Shown here: positions 41,718 through 50,608 of the stretch, piece after piece
Layout of the letters: each line of letters starts with the position of its first letter
Numbering within the stretch: position 1 is the stretch's first letter
Assembly (NCBI GenBank): GCA_013286655.1
Contig: JABDFG010000009.1
Location: 1 to 62,462, forward strand
Origin: Bacteroidota bacterium
GTDB lineage: Bacteria > Bacteroidota > Bacteroidia > JABDFU01
Length of the DNA: 62,462 nt
Direction of reading: 5' to 3'
Position numbers and translations under genes: made by a program
Notes under the pieces: generated by a model
The model's input: the letters and a program-made list of their open reading frames with translations, nothing else
The model's database searches: none
What the model was told of the DNA's origin: nothing

Positions 41718-42782
41718 ATGAGCGTAATTCTACGAAAAAGGAAAAATCAGGATGGCACTACTTCCCTACTGCTCGACATCTTCCACAACAGCAAACGGCA
41801 GTACGAATTTCTAAAGGAGTTAAAGCTAATCAAACCGCTGACACCATTTGACCGGGAAGAAAACCGGAACCGCCTAAAGTTGGCAGAGCAGATCAAGAAC
41901 AAAAGAGAGCAGCAGTTACAAGGGGACGAGTATGACATAACCCCGGCTTTCAAAAAAAATATTGATTTTGTCCAGTTCTTTGAAAGCTACAATAACAGCT
42001 ATAACAAAAAAGATAAGCGGGTAATGGCAGGGTGTTTTGAGAAATTCAAGGAGTTTATGACTGAAACGGGAATAACCTCATTCACTACCAAGCAAATCAA
42101 TGAAAGCCTTGCAAATGAGTTTAAAGAGTATTTAGAACAAACACTGAACGGGGAAACACCTGCCAATTACTTTAAGAAATTCAAAAAAGTTTTAAAGTAT
42201 GGGGTAAGCAAAAAAATATTTTCTTTCAATCCAGCACAGGAATTAACAGCAAAACGGAATGAATCTATAAAAAAGGAAGTTTTAACCTTTGCCGAAATAC
42301 AACTGCTTGCCGGAACACTATGTACAAATGATGAAGTAAAAAGGGCTTTTCTGTTTTCCTGCCTTTCCGGGCTAAGATTTTGCGATATAAAAGTCCTGCA
42401 ATGGAAGCATATAAACGGGAATGTGTTGAAAATAACCCAGCTAAAAACCAGCAAGCAGGTAACGATCAATCTGAATGAAAATGCTTTGCAGCTTATTGGT
42501 AAAGGCGGAAACAAGGATGAATTAGTCTTTAACCTTCCCTCGCATACTGCCTGCATTAAAGGCTTAAAAGTATGGTGTACTAAAGCCAAGATCAATAAAA
42601 AAATAACCTGGCATTGTGCCCGGCACAGCTTTGCTACGAATATAATTTTTTATGGTAGTGACGTGAATAGCGTAAGTTCCCTGCTCGGTCACAGTTCCTT
42701 AGCCTATACACAGCGATATTTAAGGGTAGTGAATGAGTTGAAAGAAAAAGCGGTTCAGAATTTACCAAATATTAACCTATAA
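41718..42782 (+). CDS. Tyrosine-type site-specific integrase
   Basis: This is a 354-aa phage-integrase-family recombinase of the Bacteroidota type (arm-binding N-terminus, SAM-like core-binding domain at about 85-180, catalytic domain at 185-345). Catalytic residues are R220 (CLSGLRFCDI), Lys about 243-246 (LKTSKQ), H299 and R302 (WHCARHSFAT), H325 (SLLGHSSLAY) and Tyr334 (TQRYLR). All are present, so the enzyme should be active. It lies 310 bp inside the left scar of the element, the usual position for an integrase. Confidence 0.92.
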   Translation: MSVILRKRKNQDGTTSLLLDIFHNSKRQYEFLKELKLIKPLTPFDREENRNRLKLAEQIKNKREQQLQGDEYDITPAFKKNIDFVQFFESYNNSYNKKDKRVMAGCFEKFKEFMTETGITSFTTKQINESLANEFKEYLEQTLNGETPANYFKKFKKVLKYGVSKKIFSFNPAQELTAKRNESIKKEVLTFAEIQLLAGTLCTNDEVKRAFLFSCLSGLRFCDIKVLQWKHINGNVLKITQLKTSKQVTINLNENALQLIGKGGNKDELVFNLPSHTACIKGLKVWCTKAKINKKITWHCARHSFATNIIFYGSDVNSVSSLLGHSSLAYTQRYLRVVNELKEKAVQNLPNINL

Positions 42783-42808
42783 TAATAACTTTTCAAAACA
42801 TATAAAAC

Positions 42809-43651
42809 ATGAAAAAAGAATTTATCGAGGAATTGTTTGCCAAATTTGAAAATGCCTGTTATATCTATAAAGGTGTTGAATGCTGGAGTGCAAGAGAGTT
42901 ACAGGAAATTTTAGGATATACCAAGTGGGATAATTTTCTAAATGCCATTGAAAAGGCACAAAAATCCTGTGAAGGAGCCGGAGAGAAAATTTCCGATCAT
43001 TTTGCTGACATCGGGAAAATGATCGAATTGGCTAAGGGGGCTCAAAGAACGATTCCTGATTTTGCTTTGTCAAGATACGGCTGTTATCTGATTGCACAAA
43101 ATGGCGATCCAGTTAAACCCGAAATTGCTTTTGCTCAAACCTATTTTGCGGTTCAAACCCGGAAGCAGGAAATTATTGAACAGCGTTTACTTGATATAGC
43201 AAGGGTAACAGCACGTGAAAAACTTTCCAAGTCAGAGAAAAAACTGTCCGGTATTATTTATGAACGTGGTGTAAACGAAAAAGGCTTTGCTATCATCCGT
43301 TCCAAAGGGGATCAGGCTTTGTTTGGAGGCTTTTCCACCAATGGCATGAAAAGAAAAATGATTGTTCCTGATGGCAGGCCATTAGCCGACTTCCTGCCAA
43401 CCCTAACAATAAAAGCAAAAGACTTTTCAACCGAACTTACCAGCCACAATGTAATAGAAAAAGACTTAAAAGGCGAAAAAGCCATTACTCACGAGCATAT
43501 TGAAAACAACAAGGCAGTAAGGAAAATGCTTATCGGGCGTGGTGTAAAGCCCGAACAATTGAAACCAGAGGAAGATGTACAAAAAGTAAAACGAAAATTG
43601 GAAACCGAAGAAAAGAAAGCCCTGAAGGAATTGAAAAAGAAGAAAAAATAA
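42809..43651 (+). CDS. dinD: DNA damage-inducible protein D (DinD-like)
   Basis: This is a 280-aa protein with the DinD layout. A Bro-N-like start is ECWSARELQEILGYTKWDNF. DFALSRYGCYLIAQNGDPVK and IAFAQTYFAVQTRKQEIIEQ follow, then GINEKGF-type segment, SKGDQALFGGFSTNGMKRK and the Lys-rich end. E. coli DinD inhibits RecA filament function; a phage-antirepressor-like role is also possible for this domain. It is 26 bp after the integrase stop. A perfect 14-bp palindrome 37 bp after its stop may act as terminator. Confidence 0.88.
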   Translation: MKKEFIEELFAKFENACYIYKGVECWSARELQEILGYTKWDNFLNAIEKAQKSCEGAGEKISDHFADIGKMIELAKGAQRTIPDFALSRYGCYLIAQNGDPVKPEIAFAQTYFAVQTRKQEIIEQRLLDIARVTAREKLSKSEKKLSGIIYERGVNEKGFAIIRSKGDQALFGGFSTNGMKRKMIVPDGRPLADFLPTLTIKAKDFSTELTSHNVIEKDLKGEKAITHEHIENNKAVRKMLIGRGVKPEQLKPEEDVQKVKRKLETEEKKALKELKKKKK

Positions 43652-43688
43652 ACATGAGACAATTTGCGGATAAATATTTATCATTTAT

Positions 43689-43872
43689 AATTGCTGCCGT
43701 TATTAACGGCAGCAATTACGCCGTCAGCAACGGCAAAATCTGGAAATATATTTTGGCAGTCAATAACTGCCAAAATTAGTCATTCAAATAGACAGTCGGC
43801 AACTGGCCTATTTACGCAGTCAGCAACTGCACAAATGAAAAAACAAATTAGGCAGTCAGCAACTGGCTAATT
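43689..43872 (+). repeat. Array of six short hairpins
   Basis: Six inverted repeats have centres at 43703, 43727, 43763, 43799, 43823 and 43859, so spacings are 24, 36, 36, 24 and 36. The first is the 14-bp perfect palindrome AATTGCTGCCGTTA and its complement. The others have stems GCCGT/ACGGC, GGCAGT/ACTGCC, CAGT/ACTG, GCAGT/ACTGC and CAGT/ACTG around five-base loops (CAGCA three times, CAATA, CGGCA). Hairpins 3, 4 and 6 have longer outer arms (TTTTGGCAGT; AAATAG/CTATTT; AATTAG/CTAATT). Stem bases change in compensated pairs. It lies between dinD and the 311-aa gene. Confidence 0.75.
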
Positions 43873-43931
43873 GAGAATATTATGTCATCACAAATTGTGA
43901 TCGTTGAAAAAAGGACAGGAACAAGAGAACA

Positions 43932-44867
43932 ATGGCTAAGAAAAAAATAAAAAAACAAAAGGTAATTGAAGTAAAAAAAAGTGCCCTAACTCAACTAATT
44001 GGAAAGGGTGTGATTATTTTTTATCCTTGGACAGAAAAAAATAAAAAATTATTTGGAGATGGTGAAGGACATTGGTGGCTTAGTGAACAGTTTAAAAATG
44101 AGTTTTTTTCAGCTGCAGAAAAATTGATTACAGCCCATGGTGAAATAGGAGCTGAATGCAGTTACAGGGAAATTGTTGTCAAAATAAATCAATTACCAAT
44201 TGAGCATCAACAGGCACGTTACCTTGAGATTATTAAAAATGAGATTGATAAGCAATCAGGCCAAGTTCTTCTTTTAGATGATGAGTACCTAAAAAATAAT
44301 ATTGATGACTATTTTGATTATGAAGAATTATTAATTTTTCATAATAGTGGAAATAGCTGTGATATGCTTAAAAACCAATTTATAAAAGAAAGTATTGAGG
44401 CAACAGAATCCGTATCATTAATAAAAAAATTAAATAATGATTACAATAAATTATCTGGAAAGCCCTTGTTGGAACAAGAATTTTACAAGTGGCCAAAAAA
44501 AAACATGGCAGAACTTACAATGCTATACCAAGAAATAGAAGGAGTTCTTTTTAAGGGCAATAAATCTCAGAATAAATTTATTGACATATTTTCGGAGAAA
44601 GCAATTAATGAACCAATGCAAGTACAGAACACTAGGCTACTTGTATATTTTCTGAAACAACTTCACATTAAATATATTTTGCCTGAAAACTGGCAAACCA
44701 TTGCCGAAAATAAAAAATACTTTAAAAGCACAACCTCAAAAATAATTTTAAAATCTGATCTTTCTGGAGCCCTTAGGGATATTAACAGAGATGGTAATCC
44801 TAAATATACCTCAGTTATAGCTGACGCTCTGAAAAAAGTATCATACAATCAGACTGATACTATCTGA
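43932..44867 (+). CDS. Hypothetical AT-rich element protein
   Basis: The protein is 311 aa and basic at the start (AKKKIKKQKVIEVKK). No domain is recognised. The C-terminal part RLLVYFLKQLHIKYILPENW with SGALRDINRDGNPKYTSVIA resembles loosely the ends of Bacteroidota mobilisation or regulatory proteins. The gene is more AT-rich than its neighbours, suggesting separate origin. It follows the hairpin array, which could be its leader. The pyrimidine tract CCTTTCC repeated at 44871-44892 follows its stop. Confidence 0.5.
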   Translation: MAKKKIKKQKVIEVKKSALTQLIGKGVIIFYPWTEKNKKLFGDGEGHWWLSEQFKNEFFSAAEKLITAHGEIGAECSYREIVVKINQLPIEHQQARYLEIIKNEIDKQSGQVLLLDDEYLKNNIDDYFDYEELLIFHNSGNSCDMLKNQFIKESIEATESVSLIKKLNNDYNKLSGKPLLEQEFYKWPKKNMAELTMLYQEIEGVLFKGNKSQNKFIDIFSEKAINEPMQVQNTRLLVYFLKQLHIKYILPENWQTIAENKKYFKSTTSKIILKSDLSGALRDINRDGNPKYTSVIADALKKVSYNQTDTI

Positions 44868-44959
44868 CACCCTTTCCTTTCCTTCCTTTCCTATGTTTGT
44901 TCTGTTAACAAAATAACAGGGCTTGCAAGCTTATTTAATTAACAATAAAATTAAATGGT

Positions 44960-45277
44960 ATGGACAAACAGGAAATGAAGGTATCAGAATATTTAGAACT
45001 TATTTATTCTGGTCAGAAGAAAATTGAAACCTTACTGCTATCACAAAAAACAGTTTTCAATTTTGAACAGATGGTGGAGTATACAGGGCTGTCTCGATCT
45101 TTTTTGTATAAACTTTCTTCAACAGGACGTGTTCCCTGCTCCAAGCCCAATGGAAAGCTCATTTTTTTTGAGAAGAAATCTGTAGATGATTGGTTACTGA
45201 GGAACCAGAAGGCCACAAACGAAGAACTGGAAACAGAAGCGAACACTTATATCACACTTAATGAAGGAGGCAAATAA
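44960..45277 (+). CDS. Excisionase-like helix-turn-helix protein
   Basis: This is a 105-aa HTH_17/MerR-like DNA-binding protein: FEQMVEYTGLSRSFLYKLSS and PNGKLIFFEKKSVDDWLLRN. These are typical of Xis-like or plasmid-replication helper proteins in Bacteroidota elements. The N-terminal 40 residues form a short coiled-coil. It probably assists the integrase or controls the replication genes that follow. Confidence 0.82.
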   Translation: MDKQEMKVSEYLELIYSGQKKIETLLLSQKTVFNFEQMVEYTGLSRSFLYKLSSTGRVPCSKPNGKLIFFEKKSVDDWLLRNQKATNEELETEANTYITLNEGGK

Positions 45278-45377
45278 TGATCGGCACTTTACTTTGAATA
45301 CCTGTAGATTATGAATACCTGAGCCAATTGGCTGCCAAATTAATAAACCAATAATTAAACCTAAAAACAAAAACATC

Positions 45378-45875
45378 ATGATTAAAACAATTAATTTCCC
45401 TGATTATACCCCATCAGGATTTTTCAAATTAACAGCGGGTGAAAACAAGTTACGCATCCTCTCAAATCCCGAATTCGGATATGAGTACTGGCTCAATAAA
45501 AAGCCTTACAGGTTTGCCCATGCAAATAAACCTATACCACCAGCAGGAGCAGATCCTCTGAAGCCACTTTGGGTCTTTAAGGTTTACGATTGCAAAACCA
45601 ATACAGTAAATCTTTGGGAGCTTTCAAAACCAAGCATTCAAAAAGCCTTGCAGAGCCTGATTGAGAGTGAAAGTTGGGGAGACCCGACTGGCTACCCTAT
45701 ATCAATAACGGTGACTGGATCAGGTATGGATACACGGTACGCAGTGCTGCCTTTGCCAAAGGAGCCTTTGTCTTCTGAAATTCAAAAGCTAAGTGATGAA
45801 TCTACTATTGATTTGAGTAACATATTCAATAGTGGTGGTACAGGTTCCAAGCGGAATACTGAATTTAATTTGTAG
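45378..45875 (+). CDS. Phage-type single-stranded DNA-binding-like protein
   Basis: This is a 165-aa protein with GFFKLTAGENKLRILSNPEF and GYEYWLNKKPYRFAHANKP, then WVFKVYDCKTNTVNLWELSK. The opening is like the OB-fold of phage SSB proteins (gp32-like pattern FxxKxGxNKxRIL), and the C-terminus has the acidic/flexible tail SDESTIDLSNIFNSGGTGSK. It is immediately upstream of the helicase and primase genes, which supports the assignment. A zinc-binding motif is not visible. Confidence 0.6.
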   Translation: MIKTINFPDYTPSGFFKLTAGENKLRILSNPEFGYEYWLNKKPYRFAHANKPIPPAGADPLKPLWVFKVYDCKTNTVNLWELSKPSIQKALQSLIESESWGDPTGYPISITVTGSGMDTRYAVLPLPKEPLSSEIQKLSDESTIDLSNIFNSGGTGSKRNTEFNL

Positions 45876-45885
45876 TTCTAACTGA

Positions 45886-45915
45886 AATGCCTGTGGGTTG
45901 TAGCTCACAGGCATT
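45886..45915 (+). terminator. Terminator after the SSB-like gene
   Basis: AATGCCTGTG pairs with CACAGGCATT around a 10-nt loop. TTATT follows, so it works on the plus strand. The stop of the SSB-like gene is 11 bp upstream. Confidence 0.7.
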
Positions 45916-45944
45916 TTATTAACTAAACTTTAATATTTACGACA

Positions 45945-47696
45945 ATGAAAGATACTGATTTTAACAATGAATTACAAGCTCCCGTTGAAACCATAACGGC
46001 CAACCTGGATGCTCAGACCTCCAATGATGCCAGTCCTGAAACACCCACAGACGATGCTGTTAATAAGGATCAGAAGGAAACAATTTTCATTAAACCGGGG
46101 GATGACTTCTCCGATGTAATTATCCCGGATGTTTCCGATTCAAGTGAGAATTCCAAGAAGGAAGAATCAGAAAATAGTTCTCCTGATAACGGCTCCTGCG
46201 ATGCTCACACGACTTCTCCTCTAAGTGAAAATGAATTTACTATTGGGATATGGCTTTTCACCATTATCAAAGGAGGGATTGCTAAACTGAAGGGATTTTG
46301 TAGAAGCTGTGTTATCCAAAAGTTTACCGAATACGGCTACTACAAAAGATATCGAGATAAAATGTCTTACATATTTATCAGGGAACAGGACGGTATCATT
46401 GAGGAGACAGAAACGGTCATTGTTAAAGACCTTTTTCACCAGGAGGTTGTTGACATGAAGGAGTCAATGGTTATTTCTCACAATGGTAGCAATGCTGAGG
46501 TATTACCGCAGAAGCTCAAGGAAACATTCTTGAACCAAAGCAACATCATTTTTAACAGGCAATTCCTGGAACATTTACCTAACCATACCAAACCGATCCT
46601 GAAGGATGACAAAACAACGGCTAACTTCTTTTTCCAGAATCAGATTATTATGGTGACTGCAAATGGAATTGACTATGTTGAGTACAGGGACATACTGGAC
46701 TATTGCATCTGGAAGAACCAACAAATTGAACATGTATTCACCTACAATCCTGACAATAAGAACTGCCACTTTGCAAAGTTCGTTAGAAATGTCACAAATA
46801 ATGATCCTTTGCGCTTGGGTGCACTTGTATCTGGCATTGGTTACCAGCTTCACAATTATAACCACCCATCCGGAGGTCAAGCGGTACTTCTTTATGACGA
46901 GGAAATCGCTGATATTAGTTCACCGATGGGCGGCACTGGCAAGGGGTTAATTGGCAATGCTATCGCTGAGATGAGGGAAGTTGTTAAAATTGATGGAAAG
47001 AAATTTAACCCTAAGGACCGGTTCTGTTTTCAGGACATTTCCGACAGCACACAAGTCGTGTTATTTGACGATGCGAAACCAGATCTAGGGTTTGATCGTT
47101 TTCATAGCATACTCACCGATGGTTGGAGTGTTGAGAAAAAACATAAGGATCAGTTTTTTATTAAACCGAAGGACAGCCCCAAAATGCTTATCACCAGCAA
47201 CTCCATCCTCAGCAGTGATGGCAACACTAATAAGAGAAGACAGCATGTTATCGAATTGTCCGACCACTACTCAAAGCAATTTAAGGCGGGAATCAAGGAG
47301 CCTATTAAAAGTGAGCATGGCTGTACCTTCTTTGATGAACAAGATTGGGATGCAGTTGAGTGGAACAAATTCTATTCCTATATGCTTGAGTGTATTCAAT
47401 ACTACTTAGAGTTCGGCCTGCAAGATTACCCGCACGTAAACGTGGAAGAGAACAAATTAAGACAGGCTACCAGCGAGGAATTTTGTGAATGGACAAAAAG
47501 CCAGAATTTTCAGAAAGGCGTGAAATACGGTATCAGTGATTTGTGCCGGGAATTTACCGACATCTATTACGGGAGTTCTTCCAATGACTTTAATCAGCGG
47601 ACATTTAACCAATGGATGAAGAAATTTGCAGCTTCCAGAGAATGGACAATGGAAATTAAAAAAAGTAACAGTTCCAACTTTTGCACCTTTAAATAA
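45945..47696 (+). CDS. SF3-type replicative helicase/ATPase
   Basis: This is a 583-aa replication protein. The first 95 residues are acidic and low in complexity. The ATPase core has Walker A SSPMGGTGKGLIGNAI (about 325-340), Walker B VVLFDDAKPDLGFD (about 371-384) and a sensor KMLITSNSILSSDGNTNKRR with Arg finger candidates. The C-terminal part (EWTKSQNFQKGVKYGISDLC) is a DUF5906/primase-helicase-like tail. The order SSB, helicase, primase suggests that the element replicates autonomously at some stage. Confidence 0.8.
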   Translation: MKDTDFNNELQAPVETITANLDAQTSNDASPETPTDDAVNKDQKETIFIKPGDDFSDVIIPDVSDSSENSKKEESENSSPDNGSCDAHTTSPLSENEFTIGIWLFTIIKGGIAKLKGFCRSCVIQKFTEYGYYKRYRDKMSYIFIREQDGIIEETETVIVKDLFHQEVVDMKESMVISHNGSNAEVLPQKLKETFLNQSNIIFNRQFLEHLPNHTKPILKDDKTTANFFFQNQIIMVTANGIDYVEYRDILDYCIWKNQQIEHVFTYNPDNKNCHFAKFVRNVTNNDPLRLGALVSGIGYQLHNYNHPSGGQAVLLYDEEIADISSPMGGTGKGLIGNAIAEMREVVKIDGKKFNPKDRFCFQDISDSTQVVLFDDAKPDLGFDRFHSILTDGWSVEKKHKDQFFIKPKDSPKMLITSNSILSSDGNTNKRRQHVIELSDHYSKQFKAGIKEPIKSEHGCTFFDEQDWDAVEWNKFYSYMLECIQYYLEFGLQDYPHVNVEENKLRQATSEEFCEWTKSQNFQKGVKYGISDLCREFTDIYYGSSSNDFNQRTFNQWMKKFAASREWTMEIKKSNSSNFCTFK

Positions 47697-47706
47697 ATAG
47701 AAAGGG

Positions 47707-48795
47707 ATGGGAAACAGCCAATTTGATAATAGCCAAGTCCAAAACAGTGACAGAGTGACGGCAGATATTGTAAAGGAGGGTACCCCATTAAATGTATATT
47801 CCAATTTAAATGGGACTCCGCCCGATGAAAATCGCAAGTCAGAAAATATAGGGGTACCCCCTACCATAGTAGGTTCTCGTCACTTCGTCACTTTCTCTGA
47901 CCACTTCGAGGATTCTGTCAGTTGCTTTGCCAACATATTCAGCACTGATCCGCACAACATCACACTAGATAAATGGATTAACGCCTGCACGAACCCACAA
48001 AGTCAGTTCGCGCTTGAACAGAGAGATCTTTGCCTTAAATTCAGGGAAACTGGAAATAAGCAAATAAAGGGAGCAATGCTAGCATTCAGCCCAGGAGCGG
48101 AAATGATCAGTAGGAAAAAAGAACTGAGCGATACGGAAAAGAGATTAAATGTAACCGGCTGGGCCCAGTTCGATATTGATCCCCAACACAATTCTCATAT
48201 AAAGGATTGGGTAAATTTACGGGATCAGGTAAGTAACATCTCCTATGTAGCATTTTGCAGCCTTTCCGCTTCAGGGAAAGGAGTGTGGGGACTGGTTAAA
48301 GTATCCCGTCCTGATAAATACCCGCTACATTTTGAGCAACTTAAACGGGACTTTGCAAGCAGGCGAATAATCTTGGATCCAACCAAAGGAGGGAACCCCA
48401 CAGATCTGAGGATATACAGTTTTGACCCCGATGCGTACGTAGCAGATCAGTTCAGGATTTATGATCGTATTTATAAACCTATGCTACAAAAGGTAAAATC
48501 TTTTAAACAGCACGGAATCAGGGATAATTTCGGGAAGGTTCAAAGCCTAGTAAAAAAGATACAGCTCACTCGTACTGATTTAGCCCCGGATTACTTGACT
48601 TACCTTAGAGTCGGACTGGCACTTGCAACTGAGTTTGGTGAGTCAGGCAGGAGCCTCTTCCATGATGCTTGCTCAGTTAGTCCAAAGTACAAATACCGGG
48701 ATGCTGACAAAGATTTCTCTAGTTGGTTAAAGGCCCATAATGGAAAAATTACTATTAATACCTTTTACTATCTATGTAATTGTAAAATGAACTAG
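47707..48795 (+). CDS. VirE N-terminal/BT4734-like primase with PriCT domain
   Basis: The protein is 362 aa. After a variable N-terminus (about 1-55), the VirE_N/BT4734-like domain runs from about 60 to 245. It has IKGAMLAFSPGAEM, GWAQFDIDPQHNS with acidic metal ligands (FDID), SLSASGKGVWGLVKVSRPDK, and LDPTKGGNPTDLRIYSFDPD. The C-terminal segment YLRVGLALATEFGESGRSLF to FSSWLKAHNGKITINTFYYL is a PriCT_2-type primase domain. It is separated by 10 bp from the helicase gene. Confidence 0.83.
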   Translation: MGNSQFDNSQVQNSDRVTADIVKEGTPLNVYSNLNGTPPDENRKSENIGVPPTIVGSRHFVTFSDHFEDSVSCFANIFSTDPHNITLDKWINACTNPQSQFALEQRDLCLKFRETGNKQIKGAMLAFSPGAEMISRKKELSDTEKRLNVTGWAQFDIDPQHNSHIKDWVNLRDQVSNISYVAFCSLSASGKGVWGLVKVSRPDKYPLHFEQLKRDFASRRIILDPTKGGNPTDLRIYSFDPDAYVADQFRIYDRIYKPMLQKVKSFKQHGIRDNFGKVQSLVKKIQLTRTDLAPDYLTYLRVGLALATEFGESGRSLFHDACSVSPKYKYRDADKDFSSWLKAHNGKITINTFYYLCNCKMN

Positions 48796-48928: not shown

Positions 48929-50608
48929 ATGAGTATTATACATGTTAACCAGATAGCGGGAAAAATCACCCAACTATTTAGGGATAAAATAGATCTTTCT
49001 GATATCACCGATAATGATTCTGAAAAAGAGGTTAAATGCCTTACGCGATCATTAGCGGCTTATGCAATATACAATCATACTGCTTGCTCTTCTGAAGAAG
49101 CAGCTCACTCAATTGTAGATGGCGGGAACGACAATGGCATTGATGCGATTTTTTATTCTGCTGTTTTAAAAGAGTTAATCATTGTTCAATCTAAATGGAT
49201 AAAAACCGGATCCGGAGAACCTGATAGTGGTGAAATACTAAAGTTCTGTTCCGGCATTGAAGATCTTATTAATTTGAATTTTGAACGGTTTAATAGTAAA
49301 GTAAGCAATAGACAGCAAGAGTTTGTAAAAGCAATTTCTGGTTTTGACACAAAGTATGTTGTTATTCTCGCATATACTGGTGACAAAGGAATTGCCGAAC
49401 ATGGTCAAAGAAGAATTGACGACTTATTAAATAAGCTAAATGATGCGGGAGAAGGCCCCATTGAAGAACTAATAAGATTTAAAAAATTTGACCAAGCCAA
49501 AATATACACTAGCCTTTCAAAAGGATTACTTTCGGATCCATTGGATATTGCAGTAGGCCTGCATCAATGGGGAAAATATTCAGAACCATTTGGTGCATAT
49601 TATGGCTATATATCTGGTGAAGAGATCGCAAAATTGTGGAATGAAAGTGGCAGAAAACTCTTTCATAAAAACATTAGAAACGTATTGGGTAAAACAGATG
49701 TTAATGACGAACTTCAGGCGACCATTCAAAATAATCCTGAAAAATTTTGGTATTTCAACAATGGCATAACAATTATTTCTGACACTATTGAAAAATCAAT
49801 GATTGGAGGTACTAACAATGATCTTGGAAGTTTTAAGTTGAGCAATGCCTCAATAGTCAATGGCGCTCAAACAATAAGTTCAATCGGTGAAACCGCCTCC
49901 AAATTTCCAGAACAAATAAAGAGAATATTTGTTCTGGCTAGGTGTATAAGTCTTCAAAATACTCCTCCTGAATTTGGCAATGAGGTAACAAAAAGTAATA
50001 ATAGACAAAATAGAATCGAGAACAGAGATTTCGTTTCTCAGGATCCCGAACAAAATAGAATACGAGAAGAGTTAGCGCATGATGCAATAAATTATATTAT
50101 TGCAAGGTCTGATCAATTTGTTATATCAAAATCCTCATTTGAGGTAGAAGAAGCTACCATTAGTTTAGCGTGTGCTTCCGGCCAGGTTTCTTTAACCGTG
50201 CAGGCTAAGCGAGAATTAGGTAAATTCTATGAAAATCTTGCGAAAGGTATATACAAACAAATATTTAATCCTTCTACAACAGGCAGGTATCTTTTTAATT
50301 GTATTCAAATTAATAGAGAAGTGGAAAGATTAATCGCTCTAAAAATTGACACCTTGGATAGAAGAAGCGGGAAGGAATACGGAATTCTTGTTCATGGAAA
50401 CAGAATGATAAGTAGTTTTGTGTTTCAAAAAATTAAACTGTCAAATTCTGACATATTAAATATTGAAAACTTGAATTTAGATCAATATTTCCAGGAAGTT
50501 TTAATTAAAATAACAACTGCCATTAATTCGAATTTTGCTGACAATTTCCTTGCTACCTTATTTAAGAACAAAACTAAATGTGATATATTACAACGTATGT
50601 GCCAATAA
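48929..50608 (+). CDS. AIPR-family protein (phage-resistance nuclease-like)
   Basis: This is a 559-aa AIPR protein. The N-terminal PD-(D/E)xK-like motif is DGGNDNGIDAIFYSAVLK with ELIIVQSKWIK (D72, Q87, K89). The AIPR core includes KNIRNVLGKTDVNDELQATI, NPEKFWYFNNGITIISDT, NASIVNGAQTISSI and RENGR-like NNRQNRIENRDFVSQDPEQN. AIPR proteins were named for abortive infection systems and are mostly of unknown mechanism. It is the only defence-type gene clearly on this element. A CCATATGG palindrome (48870-48877) lies 50 bp upstream of its start and might control it. A 15-bp-arm hairpin follows. Confidence 0.85.
   Translation: MSIIHVNQIAGKITQLFRDKIDLSDITDNDSEKEVKCLTRSLAAYAIYNHTACSSEEAAHSIVDGGNDNGIDAIFYSAVLKELIIVQSKWIKTGSGEPDSGEILKFCSGIEDLINLNFERFNSKVSNRQQEFVKAISGFDTKYVVILAYTGDKGIAEHGQRRIDDLLNKLNDAGEGPIEELIRFKKFDQAKIYTSLSKGLLSDPLDIAVGLHQWGKYSEPFGAYYGYISGEEIAKLWNESGRKLFHKNIRNVLGKTDVNDELQATIQNNPEKFWYFNNGITIISDTIEKSMIGGTNNDLGSFKLSNASIVNGAQTISSIGETASKFPEQIKRIFVLARCISLQNTPPEFGNEVTKSNNRQNRIENRDFVSQDPEQNRIREELAHDAINYIIARSDQFVISKSSFEVEEATISLACASGQVSLTVQAKRELGKFYENLAKGIYKQIFNPSTTGRYLFNCIQINREVERLIALKIDTLDRRSGKEYGILVHGNRMISSFVFQKIKLSNSDILNIENLNLDQYFQEVLIKITTAINSNFADNFLATLFKNKTKCDILQRMCQ

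Follow-up and report, generated by a model that had tools for sequence, protein, structure and literature searches.

What is the array of six inverted repeats that follows a dinD gene in a Bacteroidota genome, and does it still have a function? The array lies on contig JABDFG010000009.1 (GenBank assembly GCA_013286655.1), of which a stretch of 62,462 bp, here called the window, was analysed. A sequence-only reading had described the repeats as hairpins and proposed an iterated protein- or ssDNA-binding site, a replication origin or a structured leader RNA.

The array and its surroundings

The gene upstream of the array was identified as dinD by Pfam (Bro-N, 3.2e-11) and by NCBIfam (PRK11525 DinD equivalog, 1.2e-102, above the cut-off). 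It is part of an integrative-element module (window 41718-48795) that also contains a tyrosine integrase, an excisionase-like HTH protein and DUF5906 and PriCT_2 replication genes. Neither Pfam nor NCBIfam gave a match for the gene at 43932-44867 (311 aa). An AIPR-family (abortive infection phage resistance) protein of 559 aa is encoded at 48929-50608. The features of dinD and the array are:

42809-43651 (+): dinD (DNA damage-inducible protein D, Bro-N domain), intact, 280 aa
42995-43024 (+): in-frame palindrome within dinD, GATCATTTTGCTGACATCGGGAAAATGATC, read as D-H-F-A-D-I-G-K-M-I
43688-43718 (+): palindromic unit 1, centre 43703, perfect 14-bp arms, PLLTA
43714-43740 (+): palindromic unit 2, centre 43727, core 43720-43734, PSATA
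43750-43776 (+): palindromic unit 3, centre 43763, 11-bp arms, WQSITAK
43786-43812 (+): palindromic unit 4, centre 43799, imperfect, RQSATGL
43810-43836 (+): palindromic unit 5, centre 43823, TQSATAQ
43846-43872 (+): palindromic unit 6, centre 43859, RQSATG-stop
43691-43870 (+): open frame of 59 codons, TTG to TAA, holding all six units in register

All six palindromes were found again at exactly the centres reported before, with spacings of 24, 36, 36, 24 and 36 nt, each a multiple of 12. The five loops also read as described (CAGCA, CAATA, CGGCA, CAGCA and CAGCA), and unit 1 is palindromic through its own centre. The stems had been said to differ in sequence and always to pair. They do differ, but perfect arms were present only in units 1 and 3 (14 and 11 bp, respectively), and one or more pairs are broken in each of units 2, 4, 5 and 6. 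Units 2 and 5 consist of a 5-bp core, a 2-nt mismatch and outer pairs; in units 4 and 6 the core is 4 bp long and there are additional mismatches. The core stem contains a compensated change within the array, with C-G in units 1-2 and A-T in units 3-6.

Folding of the RNA from 43670 to 43890 gave -68.9 kcal/mol (z = -7.3), which was equalled by 0 of 200 shuffles; the minus strand of the array folds at z = -7.8. A unit counter found 5 units at the array; in 2000 Markov shuffles it found 0.39 on average and never more than 4, and throughout the window only stretches overlapping the array reached at least 4 units per 221 nt. The array is thus real, non-random and compensated.

Relatives of the array and its coding frame

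A paired-motif DNA scan of 84,980 species returned eight stretches. One was a true relative, a Verrucomicrobia DUF1016 gene (L015) with the units IVQSATGQL, VVQSATGQL and IVQMPSGQM, all of which are exact or nearly exact palindromes at the DNA level. The remaining seven were due to chance or to unrelated coding repeats. The 54-residue array peptide retrieved only itself and noise from 396 genomes, and no convincing direct DNA relatives were present among phages, plasmids and viral contigs. None of these searches yielded an intact close relative that could be aligned to the array. In the window's own genome the array sequence occurs at a single locus; other near matches are single.

The sequence-only reading had found no support for a coding feature. 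The likeness of the array to the DUF1016/YhcG genes (PF17761, PF06250; E. coli yhcG) points to a coding origin, with the units as in-frame DUF1016 hinge units. Because the six units share one frame, the 12-nt phasing amounts to a phasing of 4 codons. As peptides the units are PLLTA, PSATA, QSITA, QSATG, QSATA and QSATG, with the general form [PQ]-[SL]-[AIL]-T-[AG]. They conform to the DUF1016 hinge unit, which is palindromic, in frame and about 9 codons long, with the pattern [IVF]-x-[QP]-[ST]-x-[TS]-[AG]-[QKE]-[LI]. The DUF1016/YhcG genes likewise have 9-codon in-frame units (I-x-Q-S-A-T-G-Q-L and variants), located after NLxYMRxF and often repeated. In contrast to these genes, the array has lost the N-terminal and catalytic domains, its frame is broken and it has six units instead of two to four.

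Three further features flank the array:

43654-43686 (+): MRQFADKYLSF, remnant of the end of a DUF1016 N-domain, one base out of frame with the array
43883-43911 (+): possible post-hinge remnant, C-H-H followed by frame-shifted I-V-I-V-E-K (compare WYHHITLLDK)
43887-43901 (+): ATCACAAATTGTGAT, resembling the ORF6N palindrome core and possibly an orphan ORF6N-type site adjoining the array

The full-length DUF1016 profile gave no significant match to the frame-shifted fragment in the array region, and therefore a position-specific test was used. With a DUF1016 position-specific matrix, MRQFADKYLSF ranked first of 124,860 six-frame window positions, scoring 17.3 bits against 11.9 for the runner-up; over 11 residues it matches the YMRxFxxxY end of DUF1016_N. 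The downstream combination of CHH and IVIVEK ranked 183 of 623,720 in a DUF1016 two-block search, a moderate fit to what lies behind the hinge in DUF1016 genes ([LI][STP]W.H and the PDDEXK domain), and the overlapping bases can also be read as ORF6N-type: SQIVIVEKRTGTRE ranked 21 of 124,842 for ORF6N and is the sole ORF6N-type DNA core in the window. A single in-frame gene spanning the whole relic was ruled out by the frame shifts.

Given the identity of the hinge units and the upstream MRQFADKYLSF, the array probably represents the hinge of a DUF1016/YhcG nuclease gene that has decayed, left between dinD and the gene that follows in the integrative element. The open frame at 43691-43870 is probably a relic rather than a gene. 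In the sampled part of the window's genome (72.6% complete) neither an intact DUF1016 gene (PF06250/PF17761) nor a potential parent was present, and the PDDEXK domain is missing. Decay of the window copy is the most likely course of events: the array would have expanded to six units before its host gene was lost. The one-base frame shift relative to the upstream remnant would be one trace of this loss, and the stop in unit 6 another, TAA standing where intact genes usually have CAA, AAA or GAA (Q/K/E). We expect no present function of the window array.

Palindromes at fixed sites in four gene families

The DUF1016 set comprised 117 open frames. Most had an in-frame palindrome directly before the conserved LSW.H / IPWGHN motif, at the hinge that joins the N-terminal DUF1016_N to the PDDEXK domain. 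The palindromes measure 25-31 bp and vary widely in sequence (CAATTCGTGACGCAGTGCGTCACGAATTG, AATTTTGCAACAGGCTGTTGCAAAATT and CAATTGTCCAGACATTGTCTGGACAATTG are examples). There may be one or several, with many genes repeating the unit and some of the intact genes examined holding two to four. They lie inside the conserved body of the protein and do not form an insertion. The best hinge palindrome score in 106 DUF1016 genes averaged 9.5; with synonymous codons permuted the average was 4.6, and other windows of these genes gave 4.65. When the palindrome position was fixed by the protein motif alone, 62.5% of the cells were paired, against 38.5 +/- 1.0% after column shuffling and 20-29% at slid positions, and 316 double changes were counted against 120 under the null. 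Stems of the array type are therefore compensated across homologous DUF1016 genes, as the sequence-only reading would have predicted.

The palindrome inside the window's dinD is kept and compensated in 29 dinD homologues. The homologue palindrome GACCATTTTNNTGACGTCANNAAAATGGTC reads D-H-F-x-D-V-x-K-M-V, with A/S, P/R, V/N, R/T and P/G as paired codons. Pairing in dinD was 88.7% of cells (null 75.8%, slid 19-37%). ORF6N genes contain the palindrome TTGARRTCNCAAWTTGNGAYYTCAA, paired for 91.9% (null 70.6%). The palindrome of RhuM genes, AACTGTTCGGAAATTCCGAACAGTT, is weaker. Mean palindrome scores were 10.8 for dinD, 9.3 for DUF1016, 12.5 for ORF6N and 8.4 for RhuM, whereas 301 flanking control ORFs averaged 6.5 with a synonymous null of 5.9. 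Each of the families DUF1016, DinD and ORF6N, and RhuM to a lesser degree, thus carries at a fixed site an in-frame palindrome of its own type, in which compensatory changes greatly exceed those of controls.

Palindromes of the DUF1016 type were also present as noncoding copies upstream or downstream of DUF1016 genes, namely at L119, L115, L108 and in E. coli. At L119 three of them, spaced at 47 nt, precede the DUF1016 gene and two of the ORF6N type precede the adjacent ORF6N gene. In E. coli the strain 675SK2 (L283) has a further palindrome copy after gltD. The copies that were located are:

L119:1636-1668, 2132-2255, 2490-2556 and 2771-2797: DUF1016 gene and neighbouring ORF6N gene, palindromes of their own types upstream and inside
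L207:4127-4233: yhcG of E. coli K-12, three in-frame palindromes
L207:4967-4999: fourth yhcG-type copy in E. coli K-12, noncoding, directly after the yhcG stop
L280:2457-2483: orphan palindrome AATTCGCCAGACAGTGTCTGGCGAATT in E. coli THO-015, whose gltD-nanQ site is empty of yhcG

A match covering 80% or more of the query was found for the empty site of THO-015 in 947 E. coli genomes. Compared with the copy in yhcG-positive strains, the orphan palindrome in yhcG-less E. coli shows compensated stem differences. Alleles of yhcG were found with an in-frame deletion of 78 nt that removes two units, and truncated yhcG relics end exactly at the third palindrome, which makes them a parallel to the array relic in the window.

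Possible roles of the palindromes

Bro-N and ORF6N-type domains are DNA-binding in nature. Taken with the family specificity, the fixed coding site and the promoter-proximal copies, this makes it the favoured idea that the cognate protein recognises the palindromes, and a DNA-recognition site of the family's own protein is their most likely function. In a parent gene the palindrome would most likely be a double-stranded DNA site recognised by that protein, with copies within the gene itself and, in some cases, in the promoter region or further downstream. Of the earlier proposals, an iterated protein-binding DNA site is a reasonable one as far as the intact parent genes are concerned. In its wider form we hold this reading tentatively: DUF1016/YhcG, Bro-N/DinD, ORF6N and RhuM genes, which are mobile and mostly of a DNA-binding type, may each label both coding sequence and flanking DNA with a family-specific palindrome, recognised by the encoded protein in dsDNA and used for self-regulation, for self-recognition or for gene loss and gain by palindrome-to-palindrome recombination, and the window array may be such a mark that outlived its gene. 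The palindromes may also affect expression or recombination. As in autogenous operators, family-specific palindromes are located close to gene starts (L119, L232, L243 and L248). Unlike such operators there is an additional copy within the ORF. The comparison covered location and family specificity.

Template switching at quasi-palindromes is a known mutational process. It copies one arm onto the other, and palindromes that are perfect and seemingly compensated could therefore be maintained without any function. Such upkeep would account for compensated differences even in the orphan copy and for growth or loss of arrays, of which the 78-nt deletion in E. coli yhcG is an example. It leaves unexplained why four families each have a fixed site, why the control ORFs hardly exceed their null and why promoter-region copies are family-specific, and as the general explanation we consider it rather unlikely. 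Both template-switch upkeep and recombination between palindromes are nevertheless live, as rivals of recognition or as additions to it.

It is less probable still that the array itself continues to function as a noncoding iterated site (an operator or recombination site) beside dinD, akin to the noncoding palindromes flanking DUF1016 genes, its frame being history only. The noncoding copies beside DUF1016 genes, the persistence of the compensated orphan in yhcG-less E. coli and the perfect units 1 and 3 in a broken frame would agree with this. The spacing in multiples of 12 within one frame and the DUF1016 N-flank, on the other hand, argue for a coding origin, the noncoding spacing at L119 being 47 nt; the cognate gene was not found in the sampled part of the genome, and pairs in units 4 and 6 have decayed.

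A structured RNA between dinD and the next gene (a leader, a riboswitch-like element or a small RNA), suggested by the strong folding, is very improbable. No Rfam family came near the threshold for the array, and 0 of 26 further dinD loci had such an array downstream, the comparison that had been proposed as a check. In the parent families, stem mismatches were G-U in 28 and A-C in 40 cases for DUF1016, and 8 and 5, respectively, for dinD, and the centres were usually paired rather than looped (93 of 126). With G-U unpreferred and most centres paired, a palindrome in duplex DNA fits better than an RNA hairpin, and the constraint on the parent-family palindromes looks to act at the DNA level. 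Neither a known RNA family nor G-U-tolerant covariation was thus found, and the proposed leader RNA was abandoned. The replication origin fared no better: no link to replication was found, and the same 26 loci lack the array. An iteron was likewise unsupported, other dinD loci having no similar array.

Coding palindromes as such are already known from the Rickettsia palindromic elements (PMC4316617) and short palindromes from REPs (PMC3733652). Their likeness to the present palindromes, in coding and noncoding DNA, recalls a dispersed mobile palindrome of the REP/MITE type inserted next to dinD, but this is very improbable given the single locus of the array in its genome and the position of the palindrome in the conserved DUF1016 protein body. 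The Rickettsia elements are selfish insertions of 100-150 nt in many unrelated genes (PMC4316617). They share with our palindromes the location within coding sequence with an undisrupted frame; ours differ in being 25-31 bp long, compensated, fixed at one site per family and different in sequence between families. REP elements with RAYT transposases share the short palindromes in or around a gene that possibly encodes its own recogniser, but here there is no genome-wide dispersal, no Y1 transposase and a coding location. In PARCELs (palindromic amphipathic repeat coding elements), an amphipathic repeat protein is encoded by palindromic repeats (PMC2996958). No published description of fixed-site, family-specific, compensated palindromes in these four families was found in a literature search that covered few subscription papers.

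Genes of the yhcG, dinD, ORF6N and rhuM families are very widespread among bacteria, and most of their biology is unexplained. A strongly conserved coding palindrome means that codons are chosen pairwise for a reason at the DNA level, which suggests what the encoded proteins recognise; protein-level analyses of the hinges should take this constraint into account. Hairpin arrays that resemble noncoding structure are in some cases explained as relics. E. coli K-12 has at least two genes of this kind, yhcG and dinD, the latter with one palindrome, and they can be tested directly there. At another locus (L070), the dinD frame is flanked on both sides by noncoding copies of its palindrome, at distances of 121 nt (upstream) and 71 nt (downstream).
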